Positions 23,220 through 42,856 of a stretch of DNA of 64,000 bases are shown here, piece after piece (position 1 is the first letter of the stretch; each line of letters starts with the position of its first letter). Under the pieces are notes generated by a model. It made no database searches. It had not been told where the DNA came from and worked only from the letters and a program-made list of their open reading frames with translations. The stretch is taken from positions 1 to 64,000 of the forward strand of contig JAGLOF010000068.1 in assembly GCA_023139105.1 (NCBI GenBank), written 5' to 3'. Origin of the DNA: a bacterium (GTDB lineage: Bacteria; Zhuqueibacterota; QNDG01; JAGLOF01). The position numbers and the translations under genes were made by a program.

Positions 23220-24839
23220 CTACTCTTTCCGAATTGTAATATCATGCGTGGTCTCTATAACAACAGAGACAGCATCCTTATCTACTCCATCGGGAAGCAC
23301 ATGACGACCATCATCATTCAAATAAACAGGCCAGTCACATTTAATCTTGCCATATTGTGTATTAGCACGGATTGCTGCCTTTGTTTGACGTGGCATTGAT
23401 AGTTTTACCGGCTTGTAGGTTGTTATAAGTTCGATTCTTGCGCCCCTGGGCAGACTCTGAATATCAGACACTTCAATGGGGCTGCTCTTACCATTTACCA
23501 GAATATTACCGGATGTACGCTTTAAAATTACATATTTATATGAATTATTGATGCATACGTCGCCATGCACACCATCAGCCAATACAGCACTTGAATTTGC
23601 AGCGATATCCAATGTCCCGTGAATATTTTTTACTTCCACAGGCTTGTACGATGTTTGAATATCAACTGGGCCTTCAATATCTTCAACAAAAATCCCGGAA
23701 GAATTCCCTCGAATATCCAGACTACCCTTCACTCCATACACAGAAATAGGTTTGTATGATGATTCCAGAGAGACATCAGCACCTATATTTTTTATATCAA
23801 TTTGAGAAGATCCTGCATCTATCTCAAGCCGGCCCGCTATATCAGAGGCATCTACAGACTTATAAGATGTACGTATATTACAAGTTTCACCAACACCATG
23901 AACCTGCACATTAGCCGACTGGCTGATAATATCCAGACGGCCTCTTACACTGTCCACTTGAATTCTTTTATAACTCGATTCAATTTTTGCATCTCCTGTA
24001 ACATTGCTAACATCTACTGTTGAACTACTTGCTTTTATATGCAGATCTCCATCAATATCTTCCAGCCTGACACTCTTATAACTGGTAATTACTTCACAGT
24101 GGCCATGGACGCTTTTCCCAGTGACATCAGAAGACTGGGTATCTATTAGCAGCATGCCTTTAATGTTTTCAAAATTGATCGGCTTGTAACTGCTGACAAT
24201 TTCCACATCACCGCCAATATCAACAACATCGACCGAACCACTGGAATTCCTAATATTGAGTGTACCATTAAAATTATCAATAAATACAGGTTTATAACTA
24301 TTCTTTAGATAAAGGTTCCCACCTCCACCTTCAATATGTACTTCACCCGATTGATTTTCAATTTCCAGTCTTCCGTTAATGTTTTTGACTTCCACATCAC
24401 CATACTTATTATCCAGCTCAATATCCATTTTCTCAGGCAGAGTAATTTCCAATTCAATTGATACGGAAGCATTATCACCATCTCTGAAAAGATCACGCAG
24501 AAAACCGCCTTTTGATTTAAAGCGCGGCACATCCAATATCAACTTATAACCCCGCCTGTAAGAGCGCAATAAAAGACTACATCGCTCAAAATAGGCTTTA
24601 ATTGCATCATCATTACGATGACGGACCTCAATACGCGCTATCACTGATATTTCATTAACTTCACTATTTGATATATAAATATCTGCCCGCGTATCATTGA
24701 TAACCAGCAGGCTGCCGGATTTGACGGCAAGCTTTTGTGTTAGTGTCCGTGTCTTTACTGAACCACTTTTATTATTGGCTATTGCTATATTTATGACACC
24801 CATCAAACACAATACTGCTATCATCCCTCGTCTCATCAT
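23220..24839 (-). CDS. Exported beta-solenoid protein, DUF4097-like, with SYK repeats
   Basis: 539 residues. Signal peptide about 1-22. Residues 30-125 form a globular start (GSLLVINDTRADIYIS). From about 128 to 480 there are repeated ~21-residue coils arranged as ~42-residue doublets: one coil has the consensus SSxVxVxxVxGDVxI and the next SYKPIxVxxIxGxLxI. I count nine S/T-YK coils (NSYKPV, SSYKPI, TSYKSV, SSYKRI and so on). The pattern fits a right-handed beta-solenoid as in DUF4097 putative adhesins. It is the third gene after an ECF sigma factor and its anti-sigma, 21 bases downstream, so is probably the output or signal partner of that regulator. Ligand and location beyond export are unknown. 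Confidence 0.82.
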   Translation of the reverse strand: MMRRGMIAVLCLMGVINIAIANNKSGSVKTRTLTQKLAVKSGSLLVINDTRADIYISNSEVNEISVIARIEVRHRNDDAIKAYFERCSLLLRSYRRGYKLILDVPRFKSKGGFLRDLFRDGDNASVSIELEITLPEKMDIELDNKYGDVEVKNINGRLEIENQSGEVHIEGGGGNLYLKNSYKPVFIDNFNGTLNIRNSSGSVDVVDIGGDVEIVSSYKPINFENIKGMLLIDTQSSDVTGKSVHGHCEVITSYKSVRLEDIDGDLHIKASSSTVDVSNVTGDAKIESSYKRIQVDSVRGRLDIISQSANVQVHGVGETCNIRTSYKSVDASDIAGRLEIDAGSSQIDIKNIGADVSLESSYKPISVYGVKGSLDIRGNSSGIFVEDIEGPVDIQTSYKPVEVKNIHGTLDIAANSSAVLADGVHGDVCINNSYKYVILKRTSGNILVNGKSSPIEVSDIQSLPRGARIELITTYKPVKLSMPRQTKAAIRANTQYGKIKCDWPVYLNDDGRHVLPDGVDKDAVSVVIETTHDITIRKE

Positions 24840-24860
24840 GACATTCTCCTTCTATAGATT

Positions 24861-25508
24861 TTATATATTAACTGCATCTTTCATCTCAGCAATCTGAGGT
24901 GATCTATACTGCAGCATCTCTTCAAGTATCATCTTCTTTTCTTCCAGGACGTCAAGAAGATCTTTTCGCAGATGACGATTACCCGGATTTGTTCTCAATG
25001 CTTCACGCACATTAGCTATCTGTACATCCAAATTTTCCAGATAATCACGGTAGCGCAGCCTGTCATCAAGCGTCAATGATGCGCTATGGACTCTGGCACG
25101 ACCGGTAAGCTCTGAAATAGAATAAACGAAGGTATTTTCACGATTCTCCAATCTACTAATTGCTCCGGAACTCAAAGTACCACCTACGTTGATTGTATCT
25201 CTGACGCCTAATCCATAGCCCAGGCCCAAACCAACAATCAGCACTGCGGCTATGCGCCCGGCCCATTTCCATATATCAGAGTGAAACAGCTTCATACGCG
25301 GCCTGCCGGCCTCATTTTCCAACGCAGATTCAATTGAGTCCCACAAGTCCTCACCCGCCAGCGGTATCGCAGCATGGCGCAGCTGATCTTCTATTACAGC
25401 ATCCTCTGCCGCAGCCTTTTGGCAGGTATCACATATCAGCAAGTGTGCTTGCCAGCTCGTTTCATCCATACTACCCGTATGATAGGCAAGGTAATGTTTA
25501 CAGATCAT
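24861..25508 (-). CDS. Anti-sigma factor, zinc-finger (zf-HC2) and membrane helix
   Basis: 215 residues. The N-terminal zinc-binding segment carries HLLICDTC (His-x3-Cys-x2-Cys) near residues 42-49. One membrane helix lies at about 80-103 (WAGRIAAVLIVGLGLGYGLG), then a periplasmic region with coiled-coil character at 145-205. This is the usual layout of a membrane anti-sigma that holds an ECF sigma at the N-terminus. It begins 18 bases after the sigma gene stop and precedes the solenoid gene by 21 bases: one operon. Confidence 0.87.
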   Translation of the reverse strand: MICKHYLAYHTGSMDETSWQAHLLICDTCQKAAAEDAVIEDQLRHAAIPLAGEDLWDSIESALENEAGRPRMKLFHSDIWKWAGRIAAVLIVGLGLGYGLGVRDTINVGGTLSSGAISRLENRENTFVYSISELTGRARVHSASLTLDDRLRYRDYLENLDVQIANVREALRTNPGNRHLRKDLLDVLEEKKMILEEMLQYRSPQIAEMKDAVNI

Positions 25509-25526
25509 AATCTACCCTTCTTGAAC

Positions 25527-26027
25527 TTACGACAACACCGCCCTCAACTTCTGTCGTGCATGAAAAATATTTGACTTAACTCCACCCGGACTGATCCCCA
25601 GAGCAGATGCAATTTCATCCTGCTTCATTGCAGAAATTGTATGCAGCACAAAACAGGCACGCTGGCGTTCAGGCAGATCCGCAATTGCAGCATCCAACGT
25701 CATTTTCAACTCAGGATCCGGCGTATCAACTATGGCTAATAACTGAATATTCTCTGATGTCTCCGGCCGACGTTTTGCAAGAATATCCAGGCAGACACGA
25801 ATATGAATCCGATGCAGCCAAGTAGAAAAACGGGAACGCCCTTCAAAACTGCTAATAGAACGATAGACACGAATGAAAGTGTTTTGAACCGCATCCTCGG
25901 CGTCAGCATCATTTCCCAACATACGCCTGGCAACCACAAGGAGCGACTGACCGTAATTATCATAGATATATCGATACGCCCTGGCATCACCGGATTGACA
26001 TTTTTTTATAGCAGCTGCTTCCTGCAT
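25527..26027 (-). CDS. ECF (sigma-70 family, group 4) RNA polymerase sigma factor
   Basis: 166 residues. Region 2: YRYIYDNYGQSLLVVARRMLG with DAEDAVQNTFIRVYRSISSF; region 4: LPERQRACFVLHTISAMKQDEIASALGISPGGVKSNIFHARQKL. There is no region 1 or 3. It directs transcription of an envelope-type regulon and probably its own operon. It is first of three genes with anti-sigma and solenoid protein, the same order as the cassette at 39707-42479. The upstream 26028-26487 is dominated by repeats. Confidence 0.95.
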   Translation of the reverse strand: MQEAAAIKKCQSGDARAYRYIYDNYGQSLLVVARRMLGNDADAEDAVQNTFIRVYRSISSFEGRSRFSTWLHRIHIRVCLDILAKRRPETSENIQLLAIVDTPDPELKMTLDAAIADLPERQRACFVLHTISAMKQDEIASALGISPGGVKSNIFHARQKLRAVLS

Positions 26028-26119
26028 ACACTCCTTTTTGCTCTACTTATCTGTTAGACCGGCGAGATAAGGAAAAGGTTTAATCGATTTCTTGAAAAAT
26101 ATCTTTGGGACTAATTGTT

Positions 26120-26206
26120 TATATATCGCCCTTTCAGGGCTGGATGTTTTTTAATTCCATACCCCGGGCGATGCCCGGGGCTGGTATGTATTGCCCTTTC
26201 AGGGCA
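26120..26206. repeat. Composite palindromic repeat (GCCCTTTCAGGGC / CCCCGGGC)
   Basis: Two copies of GCCCTTTCAGGGC (26128-26140 and 26193-26205) surround CCCCGGGCG-ATG-CCCGGGG (26162-26180). Each is self-complementary, so several stable hairpins can form. The arrangement resembles REP/BIME-like intergenic elements of Bacteroidetes and Planctomycetes genomes. Confidence 0.8.
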
Positions 26207-26336
26207 AGAGATCTGTCTTTTAAGGGTAAGTTCATGGCACTATTTCCAAAAGGCCTGTCTAAAATCTCCTATAACCTACGACCAGCATACACATATTTTC
26301 TAATTTACACACTCGGTTAAACATCGATCCATTTAT

Positions 26337-26441
26337 TTTTTGCTTTTTGGTATTTGCTATTTGCTATTTGGTATTTGCTATTTGTCTTTTGGAATTTGGA
26401 ATTTGTTTTTTGTTATTTGCTATTTGCTTTTTGCTTTTTAC
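26337..26441. repeat. ATTTGNN heptamer array, 15 units
   Basis: Fifteen contiguous 7-base units without indels (TATTTGC TATTTGC TATTTGG and so on). The core WTTTG is kept while the two linking bases vary within a small set. It ends about 50 bases before sppA. Confidence 0.92.
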
Positions 26442-26514
26442 CATCCCTCCTTGACTTCAAGTAAATATTTACTTAAAATTAAGCACTATGTCAAATGGAA
26501 ATAACGGAGTATCT

Positions 26515-28938
26515 ATGAAACGCATTATCTGTATATCAATCATCTGCCTTTTTTCAAATCTGACAACGGCACAATCCGTATTTCCGCCACTCGGGATCTC
26601 CGGTCAATTCAACATTGCCCCGCCGGAAGTATATGGCAATGGCCTGCTGGGTTTTCACAATCCGGCAATGAGCAATTTTATCAACGGGCATCAGAGTATC
26701 ATTGGTTATAGCAGCTCCCAAGGATGGCGGCACATGGGAATATTTACCGGAATCAAACATCTGAGTTTTGGAACCATACATACTGCAAAACGTTCGAAGA
26801 TAAATGATAAATATAATATGGCTTCATCTTGCCAGGCAGCATTAGGTTTTGGTTCACGGCAGCTTGCAGTGGGAATGGGCATTGGTTGGAGTGCCGGAAA
26901 TTCTCAAATGCATAGTGATGACTATATCTCAACTGGTCTGTTATGGCGGCCATCTGCCCATCTGTCAATAGGCGGATCTACAAAATTTTCTCTACAGCAT
27001 AATAGAGCACAACATCGCTATGCCGCCGGATTACGGCCATGGGAAAAAACTGCTTTTACATTATTTACACAATACTCTCCGGATAATGATAATACGGAAT
27101 CATCATCAAACTGGACAATAGGAGCAGCCGGCGACCCCATACCCGGACTCACACTCTCACTACAATGGGCGGGTGAAGAAAACTTTCGCCTGGCATGTAG
27201 AGTACAACTGAAAAATATGGGTTTCTCCGGTATCTTACCTTTATCTCAAGATGCATCACGTGTTTCACTATGCCTTCACACAGGTGATGCGGGCAGCAAC
27301 AATATAGACAGACACTTCAGACAGCAGAGTGACTACCTCTCACTGGAAATTGAAGGCCAGGTAGTCTACCGCCGTCCTCGCTGGGGTGGTGGCCGTATAA
27401 AGACATTGACAGGCATTCTCCACTCATTAAATGATGCATTAAATGATTCCGGCGTGGCCGGCGTGGCAATCCGCCTCTCCGGCATAGGCCCGTCCGCTGA
27501 ATTGGCCTGGGAGATAAGGCGTAAACTAGACGAGCTGAAAGCAAAGGGTAAGCGTATTATCATTTTCATTGACAGACCGGGAATGGCAGGCTTTCATCTT
27601 GCATCTGTAGCCGATAAACTGATACTCGATCCTGACGGCCTTATTATGATGCAGGGTTATGCCATGTCGCGTACATATATAAAAGACATGCTGGATAAAC
27701 TTGGAATTGGCTTTGAAGAGTGGCGTTTCTTTCCATGGAAATCTGCATTTGAAAACTATGCACGCAACGGAATGTCAGAGGCTGACCGCATACAACGCCA
27801 GGCATGGCTCGATGATCTGCATCAACTATTTGTTAAATACGTAGCTGATGGCCGACAGATGACTACATCAAATATTGATTCACTCATACAAACGCAGGGC
27901 ATATTCCTGGCTCGGGAGGCGGCGGAGATAGGTCTGGTAGATACGCTGGCGCGGTGGAGCAGCCTCTCCAATATAATCACGGATGTTGAAAAGGTTCCGA
28001 AAAGACTCATAAGTAAAAACGAACTGCACAAACGCAATACATGCAGATCGGACTGGGGAGCACGTCCCAAAATTGCCATTGTCTACGCAGAAGGAAGCTG
28101 TGCAACAGATGAGGGCATAAACGCCCGCAGCCTGGAAAAACAGATCCGCACGGTAGCTGTAGATCCATCAGTCAAGGCCGTTGTGCTCCGTGTCGACTCT
28201 CCCGGAGGCGACGGCATGGCATCAGACTGGGTAGCACAGTCCATTCGTGAATGCAAGAAGCTCAAGCCCGTTGTAGTCTCTCAGGGACGTGTTGCAGCAT
28301 CAGGAGGATATTGGCTCTCCATGGATGCCGATACAATTGTTGCAGGCCCCTCAACCTTGACAGGATCTATCGGTGTCATTGGCGCGTGGATGTGGAATAA
28401 GGGCCTTGCCAACCATATAGGTCTTAAAACTGATAAGGTAAAGACCGGTCGACATGCTGACTTGCTGCACGGATACAGGTTGCCGATACTGGGTCTTCCT
28501 CTGCCTGAACGTAATCTGACACCAGAAGAAAAAGATTTAATGGAAATACGGATTCGAACAATGTATAGAGAATTTGTGGCCAAAGTTGCTGCAGGACGGG
28601 GCCTCTCCGTTGACAGCGTACGTGCTCTGGGAGGCGGCCGTATCTGGTCGGGCAGGGCTGCAAAGGCCAATGGCCTGGTCGATGTACTGGGCGGACTTGA
28701 CGATGCAATCCGCATAGCAAAGTCCATGGCCGGCATTAAATCGACAGATCGTGTTCAATGGCTTGAAATTCCAACATCACCCTGGTTTGATCTGTCCCGT
28801 TTCATGCCCAGGCTCTATGGCATAAAAATACAAGCAGCAGAACCTCTGGAACTACAAATGCTGCGTATGTTCACCGAGTCCGGAGGACAGCCCATGGCCA
28901 TATTGCCATCTGCATATTGGTCGGCACTTGAGCTTTGA
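26515..28938 (+). CDS. sppA: Signal peptide peptidase SppA (protease IV) with extra N-terminal domain
   Basis: 807 residues from the ATG at 26515, which has CGGAG 7 bases upstream and gives a clean signal peptide (MKRIICISIICLF); an upstream in-frame ATG at 26488 lacks these. Residues ~20-280 form a glycine- and aromatic-rich beta domain resembling a PorV or outer-membrane barrel segment (SFGTIHTAKRSK, ALGFGSRQLAVGMGIGWS). The SppA tandem follows from ~290: first domain with catalytic Lys in FFPWKSAFENYARNG, second with Ser in GRVAASGGYWLSM, TGSIGVIGAW and GRIWSGRAAKANGLVD. The family degrades cleaved signal peptides in the membrane; the barrel-like fusion suggests another site. Monocistronic, repeats on both sides. 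Confidence 0.88.
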   Translation: MKRIICISIICLFSNLTTAQSVFPPLGISGQFNIAPPEVYGNGLLGFHNPAMSNFINGHQSIIGYSSSQGWRHMGIFTGIKHLSFGTIHTAKRSKINDKYNMASSCQAALGFGSRQLAVGMGIGWSAGNSQMHSDDYISTGLLWRPSAHLSIGGSTKFSLQHNRAQHRYAAGLRPWEKTAFTLFTQYSPDNDNTESSSNWTIGAAGDPIPGLTLSLQWAGEENFRLACRVQLKNMGFSGILPLSQDASRVSLCLHTGDAGSNNIDRHFRQQSDYLSLEIEGQVVYRRPRWGGGRIKTLTGILHSLNDALNDSGVAGVAIRLSGIGPSAELAWEIRRKLDELKAKGKRIIIFIDRPGMAGFHLASVADKLILDPDGLIMMQGYAMSRTYIKDMLDKLGIGFEEWRFFPWKSAFENYARNGMSEADRIQRQAWLDDLHQLFVKYVADGRQMTTSNIDSLIQTQGIFLAREAAEIGLVDTLARWSSLSNIITDVEKVPKRLISKNELHKRNTCRSDWGARPKIAIVYAEGSCATDEGINARSLEKQIRTVAVDPSVKAVVLRVDSPGGDGMASDWVAQSIRECKKLKPVVVSQGRVAASGGYWLSMDADTIVAGPSTLTGSIGVIGAWMWNKGLANHIGLKTDKVKTGRHADLLHGYRLPILGLPLPERNLTPEEKDLMEIRIRTMYREFVAKVAAGRGLSVDSVRALGGGRIWSGRAAKANGLVDVLGGLDDAIRIAKSMAGIKSTDRVQWLEIPTSPWFDLSRFMPRLYGIKIQAAEPLELQMLRMFTESGGQPMAILPSAYWSALEL

Positions 28939-28939
28939 T

Positions 28940-28966
28940 AAGGTATTTTATCGCCGGAATAATAAT
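28940..28966 (+). repeat. 27-bp direct repeat, left copy
   Basis: AAGGTATTTTATCGCCGGAA then TAATAAT; identical to 29242-29268 except for one base (A/G). A 13-base part, CCGGAGTAATAAT, recurs inverted at about 39129-39141. Confidence 0.85.
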
Positions 28967-28986
28967 TCAATTGTGCACAAGACATT

Positions 28987-29073
28987 CGGTATCAGTCTCG
29001 GTCTCGTAATCGTTTGTTGTTCTGCTGTTTATAAACGAAAGAACCGATAGCGACACCGATATCGATATCGATG
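28987..29073. repeat. Hexamer-periodic inverted arms (CGGTATC / GATACCG type)
   Basis: The left arm reads CGGTATCAGTCTCGGTCTCG and the right arm GATAGCGACACCGATATCGA; they are approximately inverse complements built on a 6-base CGATAY period, separated by about 35 bases. Confidence 0.55.
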
Positions 29074-29241
29074 GAAAGGTGATACATTCAACTCAAAAGT
29101 ATATAAATTGTTCGGAGGTAATTAGATCTACACTGCTGATTTTAAGGGTGATTGAGATTATTAATCCGGCAATAAAAGAATTCTCCTCCGGAGGGCGAAA
29201 AAAGTTGACACTGCAGCACCGTGAAATTTCAATATTTATGC

Positions 29242-29268
29242 AAGGTATTTTATCGCCGGAGTAATAAT
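29242..29268 (+). repeat. 27-bp direct repeat, right copy
   Basis: Second copy of the 28940-28966 repeat, 26 of 27 bases identical, same orientation. Confidence 0.85.
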
Positions 29269-29280
29269 ATATCAAGTTGA

Positions 29281-29399
29281 AATTTGCTATTTGCTCTTTG
29301 GAATTTGTCTTTTGCTATTTGTATTTTGCCTTTTGGAATTTGCTCTTTGTAATTTGTAATTTGTAATTTGCTCTTTTAAATTTGTCATTTGTAATTTGA
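29281..29399. repeat. ATTTGNN heptamer array, 17 units, in the 5' leader of the M24 peptidase gene
   Basis: Seventeen 7-base units in unbroken register (AATTTGC TATTTGC TCTTTGG and so on). It ends 13 bases before the ATG at 29413, so it must be either transcribed as leader or placed at the promoter. Confidence 0.92.
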
Positions 29400-29412
29400 A
29401 ACGAGGTCTACT

Positions 29413-30588
29413 ATGGTCAACGAAAAAATCAAACAAGCTTCAATTATACTATCAGAAATGGGTATTGATGCCTGGATAACCTTTGTCCGTGAATCATCTG
29501 CAATTCACGACCCGGCTCTGGATCTGATCTTTGGCTCGCATGTAACCTGGCCTGCCGCCTTTATCATATTTGCAGATGGCAAGGCCATGGCAATAGTTGG
29601 CAAAATTGACGCTGCCAATGTTGCTGATCACGCAGACTACGATATCATTTCCTATACAAATTCCATTAAAGATGAGCTCATTCCTGTGCTTGAGAAAAAT
29701 AATCCCCGGCGTATTGCCATCAATTACTCAGTAAATGACGTCACAGCTGACGGCCTCACCCACGGCATGTACATAACACTCATGGAATACCTTGAAGATA
29801 CGCCCTTCAAAGATAGAGTGGAAAGTTCGGAAACACTCATGGCAGCATTGAGAGGTAGAAAAAGTAAGGAAGAGATAAGGCGGATCACCGCAGCAATCAA
29901 CGAGACCATGCGCATTTTCGATGAAGTAACAGAATTTGTCAAACCGGGCCATTCTGAGATCGATGTTGCCACTTTTATAAAGTCGAAGATGGAAGAACGC
30001 GGCCTCAGCCCCGCATGGGATCCGGAACAATGTCCGGCTGTATTCACCGGTCCTGAGAGTGCAGGTTGTCACGCTGGCCCCACAGATAGACTGATCGAGC
30101 CTGGACATATCATGAACATCGATTTTGGTGTAAGGGTTGAAGGCTATGTCTCTGACCTGCAACGTACCTGGTACTTCCCGCCTGAAGGCGAAAAAGATGT
30201 ACCAGCCGATGTAATCAAAGGATTTGAGACTATCCGTGATGCCATTCAGAAAGCAGCCAAAGCCATACAGCCCGGCAAGGCTGGCTGGGAAATAGATAAA
30301 GTGGCCCGAGACTACATAGTCCAACGCGGTTATGAAGAATTCCCCCACGGCCTGGGTCATCAGGTTGGCCGCCAGGCACATGACGGCTCAGCACTATTCT
30401 GTCCCCGCTGGGATCGCTACAAAAATTCACCCTACCTGAAAGTTGAAAAAGGTCAGATATTTACAATTGAACCCAGACTGACTGTAGCCGGCAGGGGTGT
30501 TTCTACCTTGGAAGAGATCATTGAAGTAACTGAAAACGGCTGCCGTTTCATCTCACGGCCACAGATGGATCTGTGGATTGTCCGGTAG
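29413..30588 (+). CDS. M24-family Xaa-Pro dipeptidase/aminopeptidase
   Basis: 391 residues. N-terminal creatinase-like domain (about 1-150) and C-terminal pita-bread metallopeptidase domain. The five metal ligands are visible: Asp in MNIDFGV, Asp in YVSDLQRTW, His in PHGLGHQVG, Glu in FTIEPRL and Glu in STLEEIIEV. It cleaves Xaa-Pro bonds in the cytoplasm (no signal peptide). The Shine-Dalgarno is weak (ACGAGG, 6 bases before ATG) and directly follows the heptamer array. It is a single gene. Confidence 0.93.
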   Translation: MVNEKIKQASIILSEMGIDAWITFVRESSAIHDPALDLIFGSHVTWPAAFIIFADGKAMAIVGKIDAANVADHADYDIISYTNSIKDELIPVLEKNNPRRIAINYSVNDVTADGLTHGMYITLMEYLEDTPFKDRVESSETLMAALRGRKSKEEIRRITAAINETMRIFDEVTEFVKPGHSEIDVATFIKSKMEERGLSPAWDPEQCPAVFTGPESAGCHAGPTDRLIEPGHIMNIDFGVRVEGYVSDLQRTWYFPPEGEKDVPADVIKGFETIRDAIQKAAKAIQPGKAGWEIDKVARDYIVQRGYEEFPHGLGHQVGRQAHDGSALFCPRWDRYKNSPYLKVEKGQIFTIEPRLTVAGRGVSTLEEIIEVTENGCRFISRPQMDLWIVR

Positions 30589-30981
30589 GCTAATATTTGG
30601 TGCTGTTTTGAATATTGTAAATGATAAAAAGCAAGAATGTTGTTGTGCCTCTGCGTTTATCTTCTCGTTCCCATGTTCTGAGGCTGTGTGAACGAGTAAT
30701 AAACCAGTTTCAGGTCTTCATACTGTAAGGCCGGGCGGAGAGGCTCCGTGTCCTCTGTGTATTCCATAGTTAACTGCTCTTGCTCTTTATTCGGTTCTTT
30801 ATCAAAGAGCATCCAGATGCACACTATACAACTGATTTGTTCTTTACATATAACCGATATCACCAGCCGCGTCTTTTTCTACTTGACTTTATTATTTTCA
30901 ACCCTTACACTACAATTATAAATTATTCCATTTTAAAACTTTCCACTTATCTGCCGGCCACCTAACTGAAGGAGATGCACC
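30589..30981. other. Intergenic region with dispersed repeat
   Basis: 393 bases. The middle is a copy of the ~115-bp ACACGGAG-type element (30701-30820). The rest is AT-rich with the AAGGAG site of the propeller gene at the right end. Confidence 0.5.
30701..30820. repeat. Dispersed ~115-bp element (minus-strand CACAGAGGACACGGAG type), copy 1
   Basis: Closely matches 33323-33437 (for example AAACCAGTTTCAGG, GGCTCCGTGTCCTCTGTGTA, TTAACTGCTCTTGCTC, CATCCAGATGC). Read on the minus strand it gives the pseudo-peptide EYTEDTEP found as a spurious ORF in many genomes. It lies upstream of the propeller gene. Confidence 0.85.
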
Positions 30982-33126: not shown

Positions 33127-33185
33127 GGAAATGTTTCCGGTAGGTTTTGATATAATAAAAAACATTTACAAAAAAGTGTAATAAA

Positions 33186-33228
33186 AAAGTACCAGGGAAA
33201 CATTATGCCACAGACTCCCTGGTACTTT
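33186..33228. terminator. Hairpin between convergent genes, terminator
   Basis: AAAGTACCAGGGA (33186-33198) pairs perfectly with TCCCTGGTACTTT (33216-33228), loop 17. On the minus strand a U-rich stretch (UUUUUUAUUA) follows, so it best terminates the PAC2/receiver operon reading leftward; it can also serve the propeller gene. Confidence 0.75.
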
Positions 33229-33322
33229 ACCAATCATAAAGCTATCAACAAGCATTGACAACTCAAATAAGACTATATCTTAACGACATGTACATCCCAC
33301 AAACTACCAGGCACCTTAGCAC

Positions 33323-33437
33323 AAACCAGTTTCAGGCCTTCATATTGTAAGGCAGGGCGGGGAGGCTCCGTGTCCTCTGTGTATTCCGTGGTTAACTGCT
33401 CTTGCTCTTGCTCTTTACAACAAGGTGCATCCAGATG
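33323..33437. repeat. Dispersed ~115-bp element, copy 2
   Basis: Direct copy of 30701-30820 with few differences plus an extra CTCTTG unit. It lies between the terminator hairpin and the PAC2 gene. A 99-codon minus-strand frame through it is an artefact of the repeat. Confidence 0.85.
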
Positions 33438-33459
33438 CCCCCTACACAGGGTTAAATAA

Positions 33460-34425: not shown

Positions 34426-34436
34426 TGCAACTTTCT

Positions 34437-34901
34437 TTATAATATGTTTGCAAGAAAATAACCGGCAGCCAAAGCAAGAGGAATCAAAATCCATTGCAGC
34501 ACCGTCAAACGCTGCAACTGATCTACTTTACCCTGAATACGACCCTTTTCCAGACACTTGTTAACCTTGGCCTTAAGATCATCAAAATTAACCGGCTTTA
34601 CCAGATAATGATCGGCACCAAGGCCCAAACTTTCAACTGCTGAATCAACCGTGGGAAAAGCAGTGATAATAACTATGGGTATTTTTTTATCTTTTTCACG
34701 AATACTCTTGAGAAGAGCCAGTCCGTCCATGATAGGCATACGTATATCAGAAAGAATCAGTTCAAAACTACCATTACGATACTGATTAAATCCTTCCTGG
34801 CCATTTGCTGTCAGTACTGTCTCATGTCCCCATCTAATCAAGGTTTCAGATAATAACTCACGGATTTCATCATCATCTTCAACAATAAGAATTCTCGCCA
34901 T
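34437..34901 (-). CDS. Response-regulator receiver with C-terminal membrane anchor
   Basis: 154 residues from ATG 34901 (a GTG one codon upstream is also possible; GGGGGAG precedes both). The receiver is intact: ILIVEDDDE with the acidic pair, phospho-acceptor in ELILSDIRMPIMDG, IVIITAFP with Thr, and HYLVKPVN with Lys. After a short amphipathic linker (KGRIQGKVDQLQRL) comes a hydrophobic segment to the C-terminus (VLQWILIPLALAAGYFLANIL in outline) that looks like one membrane helix. A receiver tethered by its C-terminus with no output domain is unusual. It precedes the PAC2 gene by 11 bases, suggesting the phosphorylated receiver controls that protein at the membrane (inference). No kinase is adjacent. 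Confidence 0.85.
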   Translation of the reverse strand: MARILIVEDDDEIRELLSETLIRWGHETVLTANGQEGFNQYRNGSFELILSDIRMPIMDGLALLKSIREKDKKIPIVIITAFPTVDSAVESLGLGADHYLVKPVNFDDLKAKVNKCLEKGRIQGKVDQLQRLTVLQWILIPLALAAGYFLANIL

Positions 34902-34904
34902 CAC

Positions 34905-35224
34905 TCCCCCTTATTCATACCTGATCAATGGAATTACAATTAGGTAGCTCTATAACAAGTCTAATGAACATCCCTTTAACATAAAAAATGAAAATAATCG
35001 GGGAAAGCAGGGGGTTCATAATTGCTGGAAACTATTAATTATTATATATTAAAGAAAAATGTAACGATATTTTATTACCTTGTCAAGAGAAAAACCACAT
35101 ATCCTGCAACCTCAAGCACAATATTATACTTGCCATTGTCACTATATTAGTTTACATTATGTACTTATCTACCAATTTATAATTTGCACTAAAGTCACTA
35201 ATTACCAAATTAAGGAGTGCCTGT
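34905..35224. other. Divergent intergenic region receiver / M16 peptidase
   Basis: 320 AT-rich bases between divergent genes. No repeat, hairpin with U tract or small gene stands out. AAGGAG lies just before the M16 gene start. Confidence 0.4.
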
Positions 35225-36721
35225 ATGAGACATCAAACCCTGGGCAAAAAAATTTTAATTGCTGTACTTGCAGTGCTTTACAGCATGTCAATGGCGCAAA
35301 GCTTTGAGCAGATACAAAGTAATATCGCCACACATACTCTGTCAAACGGTATGAAATGGATTGTTTTCGAGCGACATGATGCCCCGATTGTATCATTCAA
35401 TCTATATGCCGATGTAGGTTCTGCCAACGAGAGCTACGGCATTACCGGTATCTCTCATCTATTAGAACATATGGCTTTCAAAGGAACTGAGATTGTAGGC
35501 ACTAATAATTATGATGAGGAAAAACTGGCACTCTCGTCTCTGGACTCTGTCTATGCGCTTCTTCAAACTGAAAAAGCAAAAATAAATCCGGAGAAACAAC
35601 GTCTGGAAATTCTTCAGAGCGCGTTTGATATGTTTCAGGCTAAAGCCAAAACATATGTTATCACCAATGAACTTGTTGATCTATTTGATAATGAAGGTGA
35701 AGCCGGACTTAATGCCGGAACCGGAACTGACAATACAGAATATACCAATGCCCTTCCTTCCAATCGCCTTGAATTCTGGATGGCTTTGACATCAGACCGC
35801 TTCATGAATCCTGTATTTCGTGAATTCTACAAAGAACGCAATGTGGTAATTGAAGAAAGAAGACTACGAACAGAGACGCAGCCTATTGGACGATTAATGG
35901 AAGACTTATTTGCATCGGCCTTCAAATCTCACCCCTATCATCACTCTGTAGTCGGACACATGTCGGATATTCAGGCAATTACACGCCAGGATGTAATAGA
36001 TTATTTTAATAAATTCTACATTCCATCAAATATTGTTGTAGGTATTGCCGGTGACGTTAAACCAAAAGAAGTCTTTGCCATGGCTGAAAAATATTTTGGC
36101 CGAATACCCGGAAGCGCAAAACCATTGCCGCCTAGAACGATTGAGCCGGAACAGTGGGGCCAGCGTCGTGTAAAAGTAGAGGCTCAGTCACAACCCATCC
36201 TGCTATTTGGATACCACAGACCAGCCGCAAAACATTCTCATGATGCTGCGCTGGGAGCTCTGGCAAATATTTTGGGACAGGGACGCTCATCCTGGCTATA
36301 CACCGAATTAGTCAAAAAACAGAAAATTGCCATTGACTGTGGAGCCTTTAACGGCTTCCCCGGCAACAAATATCCAAACCTCATTGCTTTTTATGCTGTT
36401 CCGGCTCAAGGTCACACAGCCCAGGAATGCCTGGATGCCATAGATATAATTATTGAAAAAGCAAAAACCGAAGCAGTGATTCCCAATGAGTTAAACAAAT
36501 ATAAACGTAATACAAAAAAAGGTATGATCAATACCATGAAATCTAATGCCGGAATCGCTTCTGCTCTATGTAATGCTGAAATTAAATTGGGTGGATGGAA
36601 AAAATTCTTCGAAGAGTATGAAGATGTGCAAAAACTTACTGCCGACGATGTAATGGAAATGGCACATACATATCTGAACAAAAAGAACCGTACGATTGCA
36701 GAAATTGTACAGGCACAGTAA
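35225..36721 (+). CDS. M16-family zinc peptidase, catalytic subunit
   Basis: 498 residues. Signal peptide about 1-27 (cleaved near SMAQS). The active M16 motif HLLEHMAFKGT (His-x-x-Glu-His) is at about residues 79-83, with the distal Glu in the NVVIEERRLRTE helix. There is a second M16 domain half (about 260-495) with GQGRSSWLYTELVKKQKIA. An insertion of ~70 residues (about 95-165) after the zinc motif is longer than in the mitochondrial-type enzymes. Exported, so likely periplasmic. It lies 26 bases upstream of a second M16 gene lacking the zinc motif; such pairs form heterodimers in the PqqL/YmxG-like bacterial branch. Confidence 0.93.
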   Translation: MRHQTLGKKILIAVLAVLYSMSMAQSFEQIQSNIATHTLSNGMKWIVFERHDAPIVSFNLYADVGSANESYGITGISHLLEHMAFKGTEIVGTNNYDEEKLALSSLDSVYALLQTEKAKINPEKQRLEILQSAFDMFQAKAKTYVITNELVDLFDNEGEAGLNAGTGTDNTEYTNALPSNRLEFWMALTSDRFMNPVFREFYKERNVVIEERRLRTETQPIGRLMEDLFASAFKSHPYHHSVVGHMSDIQAITRQDVIDYFNKFYIPSNIVVGIAGDVKPKEVFAMAEKYFGRIPGSAKPLPPRTIEPEQWGQRRVKVEAQSQPILLFGYHRPAAKHSHDAALGALANILGQGRSSWLYTELVKKQKIAIDCGAFNGFPGNKYPNLIAFYAVPAQGHTAQECLDAIDIIIEKAKTEAVIPNELNKYKRNTKKGMINTMKSNAGIASALCNAEIKLGGWKKFFEEYEDVQKLTADDVMEMAHTYLNKKNRTIAEIVQAQ

Positions 36722-36747
36722 GCCTGCCGAATGAAAGGATTTTAATT

Positions 36748-38844
36748 ATGAACTACATTTCCAGACTATTCCAGCGCATTGCATGGACTTTATTATTTTT
36801 GGCCATACCACTAATGGCTCAAAAAGGGCCAAAAGATAAATTTGAATTTACAAAATTGAATAAGATTAAACTTCCCAAAGTGCACAAGGTTGTTTTACCG
36901 AACGGCCTTGAGTTACTGCTGGTTGAAGACAAGGACTACCCGACTATTGACCTCAGGGCTTTGATCCGTACAGGCTCTATACATGAAGATGCAGACAAGA
37001 CAGGCCTTGCAGGCATTACCGGAGAGGTAATGAGATCAGGCGGATCAAAGAAATTCCCCGGAGATGCATTAGACGCAACCCTTGAGACTCTTGCAGCTAC
37101 AGTAGAAACATCTATAGGTATAAGTTCAGGCAGAGCAACTATCTCCGTTTTAAAAGAAGATATTGACAAAGGGCTCGAAGTATTGGCCGATTTGCTCATG
37201 TTCCCTCAATTCCCTCAAGATAAAATTGACCTTATCAAAGTACAAGCCAGAAGTGGTATATCACGGCGTAATGATAATGTAGCCGCCATTGCAAACAGAG
37301 AATTTGATAAATTAATATATGGCACACACTCTCCTCATGCCCGGCATATTGAGTATGCTACCATCGATGCCATCACACGGCAGGATCTTGTTGATTTCCA
37401 TGCAACATTCTTCCATCCGAACAACATAACAATGGCGGTCTGGGGAGATTTCAACTGGAAAGAAATGAAGAAAAAGATTTCTATGACTTTCTCCGGATGG
37501 GCAAAAGGTCCGGCTGCCCCAAAAACTGCTGCAACAGTTAAATATACATTTGACTCATCAGTCAATTATATCGAAAAAACAGATGTCAATCAGTCAAATA
37601 TTCTACTTGGACATATTGGAGGTACACAGGACAATCCTGACTATCCCGCTCTAACCATTATGAACCAGATACTATCCAAAGACAGACTTTTTAAACGCGT
37701 CAGGACTGACGAAGGCCTGGCCTACAGCGTATATGGTAATTATGGCGCAGGGTTCAAGGTACCCGGAATATTTACATGTGGCTGCCAGACAAAATCAGAG
37801 TCAACTGTCAAGGCAATCAAGATAATCCTTGAAGAGATCCGCCTTATGCAGAATAGCCAGGTAACAGAACACGAGCTGCAAAATGCCAAAAATTCTTATC
37901 TAAACAGCTATGTGTTCAACTTCCAAACAAAGGGACAAATTATAAACCGCCTTCTGCGTCTTGCTTATTTTGGATATCCTGCTGATTTCATGGATACGAT
38001 TAAAGCCGGCGTTGAAGAAGTATCACGGGCAGATGTACAATCTGTAGCCAAAAAATATCTCAAACCAGATGATATGCGCATACTCGTTGTTGGTAATTCC
38101 GCTAATTTTGATGAACCACTATCAACACTTGGAAAGGTCAATAATATTGACATCTCAATTCCAAAACCAAAGGGAGAAGAACTACAGCAGGCAAACGGAG
38201 CCTCTCTGGCCCGCGGCATGTCAATTCTTAAAGCAGCCAGAAAAGAACTTGGGGGTGATAATATTGCTGCTGTAAAAACCATGCTGACCAATGCAAATAT
38301 TTCAATGATGGGTATGAATTTGAAAGCAACATCATGGATTACATTCCCGGATTTGATGCGCACGGATATGCAGACGCCTATGGGTACGGTTAAAATTGTA
38401 GTCACACCGGAATCCGGCTGGCAAATAGTACCCGGCCGAGGCGAAATGATTATGCCCGCAACAGAATTAAAAAAACACCAGGAGACTCTGTTACGTGACC
38501 TTTTATATGTTCTGGCAGATCCATCTAAAAAAACAGTCCAATTTCTGGAGGAAACCGAGATAGATGGAAAGAAAGTGGCCGATCTCTTAATTACAGAGAA
38601 TGATCATTCTTTTCACCTGCTTATTGATCTGTCAAGTTCCCGCCCATGGGGTATGAAATTTCAGGGAGAAACTCAACAGGGACCCGCAGAACTCATCGAA
38701 CAATTCCTTGAATATAAGCAATTTGACAATATATGGCTTCCCATGAAAGTAATTACAACTGTTCAGGGAAATCCCATGGCTGAAACAACGCGTGAATCTA
38801 TTGAGATAAATCTCATCATCCCGGATGATACTTACTCAAAATAA
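36748..38844 (+). CDS. M16-family peptidase-like protein, non-catalytic subunit
   Basis: 698 residues. Signal peptide about 1-24 (cleaved near PLMAQ). The M16 fold is clear (VVLPNGLELLLVEDKDYPTIDLRALIRTGS in outline), but the zinc site is lost: GLAGITGEVMRSGG stands where HxxEH is expected. The substrate-binding Arg and Tyr of the second half are present in RVRTDEGLAYSVYGNYG, the hallmark of the inactive partner subunit. A C-terminal ~200-residue region (from about 500) is additional and resembles a LolA/outer-membrane lipoprotein sorting-like beta domain (inference). Second gene of the operon, followed by a terminator hairpin. Confidence 0.9.
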   Translation: MNYISRLFQRIAWTLLFLAIPLMAQKGPKDKFEFTKLNKIKLPKVHKVVLPNGLELLLVEDKDYPTIDLRALIRTGSIHEDADKTGLAGITGEVMRSGGSKKFPGDALDATLETLAATVETSIGISSGRATISVLKEDIDKGLEVLADLLMFPQFPQDKIDLIKVQARSGISRRNDNVAAIANREFDKLIYGTHSPHARHIEYATIDAITRQDLVDFHATFFHPNNITMAVWGDFNWKEMKKKISMTFSGWAKGPAAPKTAATVKYTFDSSVNYIEKTDVNQSNILLGHIGGTQDNPDYPALTIMNQILSKDRLFKRVRTDEGLAYSVYGNYGAGFKVPGIFTCGCQTKSESTVKAIKIILEEIRLMQNSQVTEHELQNAKNSYLNSYVFNFQTKGQIINRLLRLAYFGYPADFMDTIKAGVEEVSRADVQSVAKKYLKPDDMRILVVGNSANFDEPLSTLGKVNNIDISIPKPKGEELQQANGASLARGMSILKAARKELGGDNIAAVKTMLTNANISMMGMNLKATSWITFPDLMRTDMQTPMGTVKIVVTPESGWQIVPGRGEMIMPATELKKHQETLLRDLLYVLADPSKKTVQFLEETEIDGKKVADLLITENDHSFHLLIDLSSSRPWGMKFQGETQQGPAELIEQFLEYKQFDNIWLPMKVITTVQGNPMAETTRESIEINLIIPDDTYSK

Positions 38845-38855
38845 ATCTATTATAG

Positions 38856-38883
38856 AGAGGCCCCGACAATATACGGGGCCTCT
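38856..38883 (+). terminator. Terminator of M16 operon
   Basis: AGAGGCCCCG (38856-38865) and CGGGGCCTCT (38874-38883), 10 bp perfect, loop ACAATATA, followed by TTCCTTCTCT. It lies 12 bases past the stop. Confidence 0.8.
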
Positions 38884-38888
38884 TTCCT

Positions 38889-39098
38889 TCTCTATATCTT
38901 TTTCTCTCTTGTTCTTTTTGTTAGTCTTGTTCGTTGCTAATCTCTATATCTTTTTCTCTTTTGTTAGCTGCCAGCTCCCAATATCATACGTCAACTACTA
39001 TATCTCCACCCCAGTGAATGGAGGGCTGGTATTAAAACGTATGTTGCAAGAACAAAAATTTAGCAACGAACAAAACGAACAAGACGAACAACAAAAAA
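38889..39098. repeat. Direct and inverted repeat block with TTGTTCGTTGCTAA arms
   Basis: TCTCTATATCTTTTTCTCT plus YTTGTT occurs twice (38889-38913, 38941-38965). TTGTTCGTTGCTAA at 38927-38940 is the exact inverse complement of 39060-39073, so the segment can fold into a ~120-base-loop stem. Confidence 0.7.
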
Positions 39099-39329
39099 AA
39101 TACAATTATAAAAAAATACTTTACTTAACATTATTACTCCGGAGACGCATCGCAAAAGCCTCATCAAACATCAGCGGAAACTGTAGGTTACACGAGTATA
39201 GCGCAAGGAGATTGCCACGGCACAGAACGCCTCGCAATGACAAATACGGACTTAACGTTGTCTCTGCCGGGGAGGCATTTGTGCAGGCAACAGCGGCAGT
39301 CCCATCAATGTTCCACCAGCATTCATCAA

Positions 39330-39500
39330 TATCTTTCAGGCCGGGCAGGGCGGCTTCGTGGTCTCATGATCTCTGTGCGAGTGCTCTTTTTCGTTTTTTC
39401 CGCTCTTTTCCGTAGGCAAATGCTCCTGCTCTTCAGGCAGGGCCGGGTAGCCTCGTGTATCTGGAGTGTATTTCGTGGACAATGCTCCTGCTCTTCTTTC
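39330..39500. repeat. Decayed copies 3 and 4 of the dispersed ACACGGAG-type element
   Basis: 39330-39395 (TTTCAGGCCGGGCAGGGCGG, then TCTCTGTGCGAGTGCTCTT) and 39428-39500 (CTTCAGGCAGGGCCGGG, GGAGTGTATTTCGTGGAC, AATGCTCCTGCTCTTC) align with the copies at 30701 and 33323, at lower identity. Confidence 0.65.
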
Positions 39501-39706
39501 ATTTTAAATTTTATATCCCTACGTATCTGTGATAAGCTCTGGCAAAATTTAGTATTTACCCACACGATTCAACAGAGCACCCTTTTTTTTAGCATAACAT
39601 CCGGCATGCACGTACCGGGTTTTTTCTTGGACAATACAATTCATTTACTTATCTTTTATTGCAAACCTTTCTGCGATTAGTGGAGTCAAACCAATAAGAA
39701 CTCATT

Positions 39707-40279
39707 ATGCTGGGAAGTGCCCAAATAAAAGATCTGATAATAAAAGTTCAGAACGGCGATCTCCGGGCGTTTGACGTGTTGGTTTCCAAATATGATCAGC
39801 GTATTATGGCGCTTCTCATTCAAATGCTGGGAAATCAAGACGATGCCAGAGACGTTTATCAAGATGTGTTTATTCGCGTGTGGAAATCCATTGGTAAATT
39901 CAGATTCAATTCAAGTTTTTACACATGGCTCTACAGGATTGCCGTAAACACAGCTTTATCGTTCAGGAAAAGACGTACACACAGACATCACTATTCTCTG
40001 GATGAATTGAAGGATAATAGAGAACATGCACAATGGATACCAGAAGATAGCAATGCTCTTCCTGACAGACAGTTAGAAGGAAAAGAGATTACCGAAAATA
40101 TTGAAATTATTATACATAGTCTGCCATTACAGCAGCGAGTGGCATTTATTTTAAGGTATTATCAGGAATTTCGATTAAAGGAAATTGCAGAAATCATGAA
40201 CTGTACAGAAGGTACTGTTAAAAGTTATGTATTCCGTGCTACGCACCAAATGCGTAAAAAATTGAAACATACATTGTAA
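39707..40279 (+). CDS. ECF RNA polymerase sigma factor (second cassette)
   Basis: 190 residues. Region 2: FDVLVSKYDQRIMALLIQMLG, DDARDVYQDVFIRVWKSIGKF; region 4: LPLQQRVAFILRYYQEFRLKEIAEIMNCTEGTVKSYVFRATHQM. A ~35-residue acidic/His-rich linker (RRTHRHHYSLDELKDNREHA) separates them, longer than in the first cassette's sigma. It heads an operon with an anti-sigma 11 bases downstream and a solenoid protein overlapping by 4 bases, the same gene order as 26027-23220. Confidence 0.95.
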   Translation: MLGSAQIKDLIIKVQNGDLRAFDVLVSKYDQRIMALLIQMLGNQDDARDVYQDVFIRVWKSIGKFRFNSSFYTWLYRIAVNTALSFRKRRTHRHHYSLDELKDNREHAQWIPEDSNALPDRQLEGKEITENIEIIIHSLPLQQRVAFILRYYQEFRLKEIAEIMNCTEGTVKSYVFRATHQMRKKLKHTL

Positions 40280-40290
40280 TGGAATAAAAC

Positions 40291-41205
40291 ATGAAGCATC
40301 TATCAGAGAAAAAAATATTTCTATATGCCGCTGACATGCTCAACGATAAAAAAAAGAGACGGGTGGCAGACCACCTTACCTCTTGTGATTCCTGTCAACA
40401 GATTCTGGATGAAAATACACTCTTTATTCGTAGTATTACAGCTCCCCCCCTATCTATGCCTGATATGGAATTATTAAAAAGTCAGCGTAATCAGTTAATT
40501 TCCAGGATACGGACTTTAAACGAGCGACCGCGTGCAAAGCAGTATAGGCCCCGTATAGTGTTCCCATACAGAAATCTTTTGTCAACAGCCATTGGCATAT
40601 TCATTTTATGTATTGGTATATACACCGGTGGACAAATTGAAAAAAGAAATCAGCGTGACAAACTGGCTTTTATGCTGGGACAACAGCAATTCACCAGCCT
40701 TGATATACGACAAAATGAGCATAAATATGCGCAGATCTCTCTGACTTATAAGGACAGAGATGAAAAAACATTAACCGCACGGCTTGAAGACCAGGTTATC
40801 CAATGTGCTCTGGCCGTCAACCTGCTTACTGAATCACAAGATAATATCCGCCTGAAAAATATAGATCTTATAAGGCCTAATATTCATAATCGCCCTGTTA
40901 TTGATGCTCTAATTAATCTGGCCAATAAAGACACAAATCCCGGTATTAGATTCAAAGCTCTTGAACTTCTGGGACCATTTATTAGTGACCGACAAGTCAC
41001 AGAGTGCTTTATCACTACATATCTGGATGATGACACAAACGGGCTGCGTATCAAGGCCTTGCGCTATCTCAGCCGCTCCTTTAACACACAAACAAGGTCT
41101 TTACTTAGCTCATGGGCAGTATCTGATCCTGTAGTAAAGGCATTGCTTATTGACCAGGTACCACAACTGGCACCTTCTATAAATAATGCTGCTACAACAT
41201 CATGA
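40291..41205 (+). CDS. Anti-sigma factor: zf-HC2, membrane helix and HEAT-like repeats
   Basis: 304 residues. The N-terminal zinc site HLTSCDSC (His-x3-Cys-x2-Cys, about residues 28-35) binds the sigma factor. A membrane helix lies at about 97-118 (LLSTAIGIFILCIGIYTGG). The outer part is not the usual short tail: residues ~190-300 carry HEAT-like helical repeats (IRLKNIDLI, then GIRFKALELLGPFI, GLRIKALRYLSRSF, DPVVKALLIDQVPQL). Such repeats bind proteins or metals, so this half may be the sensor, perhaps contacting the solenoid product of the next gene (inference). Confidence 0.88.
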   Translation: MKHLSEKKIFLYAADMLNDKKKRRVADHLTSCDSCQQILDENTLFIRSITAPPLSMPDMELLKSQRNQLISRIRTLNERPRAKQYRPRIVFPYRNLLSTAIGIFILCIGIYTGGQIEKRNQRDKLAFMLGQQQFTSLDIRQNEHKYAQISLTYKDRDEKTLTARLEDQVIQCALAVNLLTESQDNIRLKNIDLIRPNIHNRPVIDALINLANKDTNPGIRFKALELLGPFISDRQVTECFITTYLDDDTNGLRIKALRYLSRSFNTQTRSLLSSWAVSDPVVKALLIDQVPQLAPSINNAATTS

Positions 41206-42479
41206 GGAGATATATTTTGAAGCATATTTTAAAAACAAGAGTGCTACTTTTTTTCATTTTTATATCATATTCCGTTGCAGGCTCACAAGAATTAACTAAA
41301 AGAGGCCGCTATTGGACACAAAAACGAACTCACTCCTTTAACTTCCGTGAAAACCAAAAACTGGAGATACTGGATACCAATGGTGATATTGAGATCAATG
41401 TCTGGGATAAAAGTCAAATAGAAGTCTACCAGATCATAAGACTGGATGTCAATTCTGAAGATGAAGCAAGAGAAACTGAAAAAAATATTAACGCAGTTTT
41501 TAAGTCCAATCCGAATGTCATCCGGCTTGGTGGTAAAGACTTGAACCATAATTGGATAAATATCCGTTATGAAATCCATGCACCGGAGAATACAAATTGC
41601 CTGGTAAAACTATCTTCCGGCGACATTACAATCAATGGACTCCATAACAGGCTTACTGCCAGCACAGGTGCCGGCGATATAGAAATAATGAATATACAGG
41701 CAGACGTGAAAGCTTACACGGGTGCAGGTGAGATTGAGATTTTTAATATTGACGGCACACTCAATGCCAAAACCGGAGGTGGTGAAATTGATGTGGAAAA
41801 AATCACCGGATCGGCCAGTATTATAACAGGTGGCGGAGAGATTACAGCCTCAGACATTAAAAGTACATTGATAATTGAATCGGGAGGTGGTGAAATTGAT
41901 GTGGAATATATTAACGACGGATTAGATATATTCAGTGGCGGTGGAGATATTGACATTAACAATGTAAGTGGAGAGATAATAGTGCAATCAGGCGGTGCCG
42001 CAATATGCCTGGCTGATGTCAACGGTAATATAAGAGCAATTACAGGTGGCGGCTCAATTGAAGGCAGAAGAGTAGCTGGCAAGCTGGCAATGAGTACAGG
42101 CGGTGGAGATATTGACTTGATAGAAATTAAGGCCTCAATGGAGATTGCTACAAATGGTGGCGATATTTCTGTTGAATTCAATGTTGAGAATTTTTCTCAA
42201 GACTACAATATTATCCTGGGTAGTGGAGGTGGTGATATTTTTCTACAAATACCTGAGCAGTTCCCAGCCCGTATTGATGCTGAAATAAAATACAAAAAAA
42301 GAGCCTGGCAAAATTATGAAATCCATTCGGACTTCCCTATAAATATTGAAACTATCAATGAAAATCATTATCGCATAATCAGCGGCCACGGGAAAATCAA
42401 TGGCGGCGGCAGTGAAATTAGAATAAATACCAGTAATGGAGATATCATAATAAAAAAAGTGAAAAATCTCACATATTGA
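41202..42479 (+). CDS. Exported beta-solenoid protein, DUF4097-like, with GGGEID repeats
   Basis: 425 residues. Start ATG at 41202 overlaps the anti-sigma stop (ATGA); TTG at 41217 with GAGGAG 8 bases upstream is an alternative. Signal peptide about 1-28. Globular DUF4097-like start to about 135, then roughly nine to ten ~21-residue coils, consensus TGGGEIDVxxIxGxLxI (STGAGDIEIMNI, KTGGGEIDVEKI, ESGGGEIDVEYI, STGGGDIDLIEI). The coil length matches the paralogue at 23220-24839, although the turn motif is GGG instead of SYK. Third gene of the second sigma cassette. Confidence 0.85.
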   Translation: MRRYILKHILKTRVLLFFIFISYSVAGSQELTKRGRYWTQKRTHSFNFRENQKLEILDTNGDIEINVWDKSQIEVYQIIRLDVNSEDEARETEKNINAVFKSNPNVIRLGGKDLNHNWINIRYEIHAPENTNCLVKLSSGDITINGLHNRLTASTGAGDIEIMNIQADVKAYTGAGEIEIFNIDGTLNAKTGGGEIDVEKITGSASIITGGGEITASDIKSTLIIESGGGEIDVEYINDGLDIFSGGGDIDINNVSGEIIVQSGGAAICLADVNGNIRAITGGGSIEGRRVAGKLAMSTGGGDIDLIEIKASMEIATNGGDISVEFNVENFSQDYNIILGSGGGDIFLQIPEQFPARIDAEIKYKKRAWQNYEIHSDFPINIETINENHYRIISGHGKINGGGSEIRINTSNGDIIIKKVKNLTY

Positions 42480-42802: not shown

Positions 42803-42856
42803 CTATCATGCTCCTTTTCAAATATATTTGTTCATCCATAAATGGCGGAGGACAAA

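Follow-up and report, generated by a model that had tools for sequence, protein, structure and literature searches.

Two ECF sigma/anti-sigma cassettes with Toastrack-like exported rods: candidate envelope-stress switches in a Zhuqueibacterota genome

When the genes for an extracytoplasmic function (ECF) sigma factor and its anti-sigma factor are followed by a gene for an exported, self-similar rod, is the rod part of what the switch senses or part of what it makes? The question is raised by two cassettes on contig JAGLOF010000068.1 of a bacterium of the Zhuqueibacterota (assembly GCA_023139105.1), of which the stretch of 64,000 nucleotides analyzed here is called the window. A sequence-only reading of the window had described the two cassettes as copies of a repeated signalling module, each with the order sigma, anti-sigma, exported beta-solenoid, and had left open whether the solenoid belongs to the input or the output. 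The six open reading frames were recovered where that reading had placed them, in the same order and with the same spacings: gaps of 18 and then 21 bases for cassette 1, and for cassette 2 a gap of 11 bases and then a 4-base overlap. Our analysis favors, with a probability of roughly two in three, the view that both cassettes encode self-amplifying switches for envelope stress, each making an exported rod of the Toastrack fold as its main product. The rod looks like the main product because the same trio and the same promoter recur across many genomes.

Conservation of the trio and its promoter motifs

Close relatives of solenoid 1 were found in 14 of the searched genomes and relatives of solenoid 2 in about 50. 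The order sigma, anti-sigma, solenoid was kept at every type-1 locus with enough contig (12/12, the window included; three further loci, cut by contig ends, stand outside this count), and the full type-2 trio was present at 39 loci, one of them with a frame-broken anti-sigma gene, with two contig-cut loci again outside the count. In an independent test, in which 84,980 named genomes were searched with the type-1 anti-sigma alone as the seed, a sigma gene before it and a solenoid gene after it were found at all 18 loci with enough contig, spanning KSB1, Caldithrix, Aminicenantes, Gemmatimonadota, and Acidobacteriota, the last three outside the phylum of the window. At two type-1 loci of Gemmatimonadota, an extra gene stood between anti-sigma and solenoid. 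Orthologous solenoids lying away from sigma and anti-sigma genes, an observation that by the sequence-only reading would refute such a module, were sought in both subfamilies and not found. A third cassette of the same genome (G000:C26; L076:7281-10358) consists of an ECF sigma gene, an HC2 anti-sigma gene, and two tandem solenoid genes; together with the conservation of the trios as units over many genomes, it bears out the idea of a repeated signalling module.

A rule covering all solenoids was rejected, since the phylum also has Toastrack genes in clusters that lack sigma genes and a solenoid pair of the window's own genome (C154) lies near PadR/FtsX-like genes and lacks the promoter motif. 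The sigma-free clusters (L216, L217, L214, and similar) contain at least two Toastrack-like genes each; those of L214 and L216 also hold an exported protein of 566-573 residues, the L216 copy having no Pfam match.

The sequence-only reading had proposed a search for a shared promoter motif, and a matching two-part motif of ECF type was indeed predicted upstream of both sigma genes. The type-1 form, TAAACCTT-N15-GTCTAA, preceded 11 of the 12 type-1 sigma genes, with the spacing from AAACC to GTCTAA always 17, and the type-2 form, GCAAACC-N16/17-GTCTAA, preceded 33 of the 39 type-2 sigma genes, the spacing being mostly 17 in the window's order. The best spaced dyads exceeded those of shuffled sequences for both types (type 1, 9 vs at most 5; type 2, 20 vs at most 8). 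When the regulon was sampled by motif pattern, the exact type-1 motif gave 14 matches in 15 holder genomes, 8 of which directly preceded a type-1 sigma gene, and 1 match in 30 non-holders; the type-1 motif also had good scores in Aminicenantes and Gemmatimonadota (34.5 and 25.3 bits, respectively). The type-2 pattern gave 23 matches in 81 genomes, 18 before cassette-type sigma genes and 2 before unlinked solenoid genes, and no match in the same 81 genomes when the gap was set to 12 bases as a spacing control. At one mismatch or fewer, the type-2 motif occurred once in the 5.3-Mb genome to which the window belongs, at cassette 2. When each matrix was run over the window, the cassette sites, which were themselves within the training set, ranked first.

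Both sigma factors comprise regions 2 and 4 only, with Sigma70_r2 and r4_2 matches far over the Pfam cut-offs. The type-1 and type-2 sigmas formed separate clades, the sisterhood of which was neither supported nor rejected (single sigma clade, approximately unbiased test, 0.285). The cassettes had been called paralogous, and this description suits the solenoids, which are homologous end to end with the C-terminal cap included (profile E, 5e-33), and the anti-sigmas, which are homologous mainly across the sigma-binding and membrane part (profile E, 1e-11), but was unsupported for the sigmas. A recent tandem duplication of the whole cassette found no support, as the best tree placed other sigmas of the same genome nearer to each of the two, and it was also disfavored by the unrelated-looking outer halves of the anti-sigmas. 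In this genome, an HC2 anti-sigma gene follows most of the approximately 20 ECF sigma genes, often with an added exported protein of varied families (L268-L289), examples being an HtrA-like trypsin/PDZ protein (L282) and a DUF4252 protein (L275).

The exported rods and the anti-sigma factors

Export of the solenoids, as the sequence-only reading had it, is suggested by a signal-peptide-like start in both, followed by the repeats. A lipobox was present in 0 of 15 type-1 and 1 of 41 type-2 solenoids, and Pfam gave no match to a surface-sorting tail or an autotransporter barrel in the solenoids. The proposed coil of about 21 residues was ruled out by autocorrelation, which peaked at 18, 36, 54, and 72 in both solenoids with lag 21 under background, so that the actual coil has 18 residues. 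In solenoid 1, a coil bearing SYK and a coil bearing SS together form the repeat unit, and SYK therefore has a period of 36 residues. The turn motifs do differ as described, SYK against GGGEID, but SYK occurs once per two coils, whereas GGGEID recurs every 18 residues. Type-1 relatives varied by gain or loss of about 36 or 72 residues. An open frame rich in SISPPP on the minus strand (window 41714-42181), antisense to solenoid 2, is a by-product of the GGGEID repeats.

AlphaFold modeling on the type-1 alignment predicted a solenoid fold with a strand each nine residues in solenoid 1 (predicted local distance difference test [pLDDT], 90; predicted template modeling score, 0.83). The solved structures nearest to this model were 3pet (8e-5), 4qrk (2e-4), and 4opw (1e-3), with low template modeling scores of 0.33-0.38 by target length; 4QRK and 4OPW are structures cited for the Toastrack domain (PMC11237479). 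By predicted fold, the rods can be assigned to Toastrack (DUF4097/LiaG-like), through the model for solenoid 1 and through profile homology for solenoid 2. As to the earlier label "DUF4097-like," neither window solenoid matched the Pfam DUF4097 profile (PF13349), but both gave a weak NCBIfam LiaG match (about 1e-8, far below the cut-off). Good Pfam DUF4097 matches came from the two unlinked second solenoids of relatives that were scanned.

An HC2 zinc site and one membrane helix had been read in each anti-sigma, and both proteins do contain H-x3-C-x2-C and a single predicted membrane helix; the Pfam zf-HC2 profile scored only 20.6 bits in anti-sigma 2 (cut-off, 22.2) and had no match in anti-sigma 1. 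The C-terminal half of anti-sigma 2, missed in that first reading, consists of HEAT repeats (HEAT_2, 5e-9), and its predicted structure (pLDDT, 83) shows a small sheet beyond the membrane and then the HEAT repeats. The outer segment of anti-sigma 1, NPxNxHxRxxLLxxLxxKK, is strongly conserved and reads as a helical hairpin; in an alignment of 12 sequences, 24 columns were invariant, mostly in the outer half. Both proteins fit the class I anti-sigma factors, with an N-terminal HC2-variant domain, one membrane helix, an adjoining sigma gene, and zinc ligands lost in some members, and differ from them in their outer halves, which are HEAT repeats in type 2 and a conserved NPxN hairpin in type 1 (PMC7406223). 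The ligands were missing in several anti-sigma 2 relatives and one anti-sigma 1 relative, and such loss has been described in other class I groups (PMC7406223), so that the zinc probably plays a structural role. Since the outer halves differ while the solenoids are homologous, different inputs with the same output class would be the natural reading of the two cassettes.

Output or input of the switch

In many relatives, a second solenoid of about 330 residues follows solenoid 2, and in others it is encoded elsewhere in the genome. The type-2 promoter motif was found upstream of 17 of 40 such unlinked second solenoids, compared with 8 of 994 control genes (p 2e-20); wrong motif spacings occurred upstream of 2 to 5 of the 40, and second solenoids inside the operon had no motif (0/12). 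Unlinked solenoids bore the motif more often in cassette holders (15/26 vs 2/14; one-sided p 0.009), although the genomes are not independent and were sorted into holders and non-holders manually on the basis of the solenoid-2 search. Because the predicted type-2 promoter precedes many of these unlinked genes, the solenoids are most likely the output of the sigma factors, and the alternative left open by the sequence-only reading is tipped toward output by solenoids that bear the sigma's own predicted promoter.

Type 1 is linked to a second exported repeat family, the GLSLGNSS proteins, which start with DLAVxGxGLSxGNSS and have no Pfam match. In two Gemmatimonadota, a gene of this family separates the anti-sigma gene from the solenoid gene; in two related genomes from the phylum of the window, such a gene lies behind the type-1 promoter motif, in one of them at the head of the sigma operon. 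Loci of the family include L085:11178-13214, L149, L298:5579-7600, and L306. The few other readable members, a minority of the family, were without the promoter motif. Given the unlinked solenoids with the type-2 motif and these links to type 1, exported repeat proteins are likely a common output. Exact type-1 motifs also stand upstream of a MacB/FtsX-like permease gene, at a distance of 24 bases, and of a DUF5916 gene, at 146 bases (L145:2372-4811, L146:4228-7068), the latter gene being followed by PadR-like and permease-like genes. Likewise behind a type-1 motif is the gene for an exported protein of 214 residues that has RDH/EARDK helical repeats (L147:4752-5396).

Several points count against the rods as the main product of the switch. 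The promoters are predicted; the motif is missing upstream of 23 of the 40 unlinked solenoids, and two of those bearing it belong to genomes with no detected cassette. The control rate (8/994) is lowered by the inclusion of operon-internal genes among the control upstream regions. The motif is similar to ECF promoters in general and could therefore be read by a different sigma, and two other ECF genes of the same genome carry loose relatives of it. Output may also exceed the rods alone, as the type-1 sites of this genome before the permease and DUF5916 genes suggest.

Building on the conserved trio, the conserved motif, its copies at unlinked solenoids, and the signal-peptide-like starts, all established by sequence comparison, and on the modeled fold, we infer that the sigma reads the motif, and we likewise infer what signal would act, how the sigma would be released, what the rod would do, and any feedback by it. 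The N-terminal HC2 domain of the anti-sigma would hold the ECF sigma at the inner membrane until an envelope signal specific to the cassette reaches the outer half, made of HEAT repeats in type 2 and of a helical hairpin in type 1, whereupon the sigma would be freed. The freed sigma would transcribe its own operon from the dedicated promoter and, in relatives, the unlinked rod genes too. Once exported to the periplasm, the rods would probably serve as a coat or brace for the envelope or as ligand binders, and the switch would be reset by the anti-sigma that the operon also encodes. Feedback of the rod on the switch is possible by analogy with LiaX, a Toastrack protein that is both target and inhibitor of its own regulator.

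Among the alternatives, the one that survives best, although we consider it unlikely, is that the solenoid is mainly an input part, binding the outer domain of the anti-sigma and setting the switch in the manner of RseB in the RpoE system or of the C-terminal half of LiaX, by either a block on activation or a report of envelope damage. HEAT repeats serve as surfaces for protein binding, and the strict one-to-one linkage, with never an anti-sigma without a solenoid, would suit a bound regulator. LiaX, the C-terminal half of which is PF13349, inhibits LiaFSR and is also its main target (PMC10269926, PMC11601895). The unlinked solenoids behind the same promoter motif, however, look like targets, and the third genes had no MucB/RseB match. 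In mirror-tree tests of co-variation, rod and anti-sigma outer domain of type 2 gave a partial r of 0.33 after removal of the sigma plus anti-sigma-domain distance, but nearly everything co-varies there, as shared descent would give. In type 1, where power is low, rod and outer domain did not co-vary (partial r -0.07, n=12), whereas the sigma and anti-sigma-domain pair did (0.47, p 0.012, n=12), in weak support of the presumed binding and inhibition of each sigma by its anti-sigma, and the suggestion that the cassette senses its rod was left unsupported. It seems a long shot that the rod is itself the measured quantity, with the outer domain binding finished periplasmic rods and the sigma running until the supply is restored; if true, such gauging would be a homeostatic circuit for an envelope scaffold that changes in length by whole 36-residue units.

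Incidental linkage, in which the ECF sigmas of this group usually precede an HC2 anti-sigma and an exported protein and solenoids are merely common among the latter, would agree with only three trios carrying solenoids among the roughly 20 mostly anti-sigma-linked ECF sigmas of the genome, but is very improbable and already disfavored, as orthologues retained the same third gene without exception across several phyla and the motif accompanies many second solenoids outside the operon. There is similarly little chance that the rods are surface adhesins or matrix fibers made on surface contact rather than envelope-stress proteins. The labels "putative adhesin" or "putative cell adhesion protein" of the nearest solved structures (3pet, 4qrk, and 4opw) speak for this reading but are themselves marked putative, and the solenoids show no Pfam-matched sorting tail or barrel and, by the counts above, no lipobox.

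Layout, known systems, and meaning

The features of both cassettes are listed in Table 1. An OmpA-family gene also follows cassette 2 in three further genomes of the same order (L119, L091, L126). Divergent from cassette 1, the window encodes an S49 (SppA-like) signal peptide peptidase whose N-terminal part is long (26488-28938).

Table 1. Coordinates of the cassette features in the window
Feature	Position	Strand	Remarks
Predicted type-1 ECF promoter, cassette 1	26054..26082	-	TAAACCTT-N15-GTCTAA, 27 bases upstream of sigma-1 start
ECF sigma factor 1, 166 aa	25527..26027	-	Sigma70_r2 2e-18, r4_2 3e-16
Anti-sigma 1, 215 aa	24861..25508	-	HC2 zinc motif, one membrane helix, conserved helical hairpin predicted as exported
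Exported beta-solenoid 1 (predicted), 539 aa	23220..24839	-	18-residue coils paired as 36, modeled Toastrack fold
Predicted type-2 ECF promoter, cassette 2	39661..39690	+	GCAAACC-N17-GTCAAA, one mismatch vs consensus GTCTAA
ECF sigma factor 2, 190 aa	39707..40279	+	Sigma70_r2 1e-16, r4_2 2e-15
Anti-sigma 2, 304 aa	40291..41205	+	HC2 motif, membrane helix, small three-stranded sheet, HEAT-repeat C-terminal half
Exported beta-solenoid 2 (predicted), 425 aa	41202..42479	+	18-residue coils, GGGEID turn
OmpA-family protein	42842..44266	+	Possible extension of cassette 2; no promoter match

Neither ECF switches nor Toastrack proteins are new in themselves. Operons of the RpoE-RseA-RseB type contain a sigma gene, a membrane anti-sigma gene, and an exported third gene, and are autoregulated. 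Both cassettes share this gene plan, with autoregulation predicted here, and differ in that the third gene encodes a Toastrack rod, not MucB/RseB, and that unlinked rods share the promoter motif.

Toastrack proteins (DUF4097/DUF2154/DUF2807; LiaG, LiaF, LiaX, VraT) belong to the phage shock protein (PSP)/Lia systems, and Toastrack operons have already been proposed as PSP analogues (PMC11237479). These proteins are right-handed beta-solenoids, which the predicted fold of our rods resembles, with type structures among the top structure matches; as in the PSP/Lia systems, the rod genes lie beside stress-regulator genes. Unlike those proteins, the rods here are longer, have strict 18/36-residue units and a signal-peptide-like start, and are paired with an ECF sigma and an HC2 anti-sigma instead of PspC, LiaF, or a two-component system; no PspA/PspC/LiaF or two-component partner was found in either cassette. 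Toastrack has been argued to be intracellular, with a linked sigma factor mentioned only in the DUF2089 context (PMC11237479), whereas the signal-peptide-like N-termini of both solenoids point to another location. LiaX of enterococci offers a likeness as a Toastrack-containing envelope protein that is the main target of a stress regulator, a status predicted for the rods here, and differs in having an N-terminal helical drug-binding domain and in working with LiaFSR in Gram-positive bacteria (PMC10269926, PMC11601895). In the papers searched, no description of the trio, its promoter, or a dedicated regulon was found.

Collectively, our findings tie the widespread, uncharacterised Toastrack fold to a specific regulator and a predicted promoter motif in Gram-negative lineages. 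The rule by which sigma type, promoter type, and rod type go together spans Calditrichota/KSB1 to Acidobacteriota and Gemmatimonadota, and the motif may be used for finding further members in uncultured bacteria. This suggests that exported Toastrack rods could be an envelope-stress output beyond the Gram-positive Lia systems.

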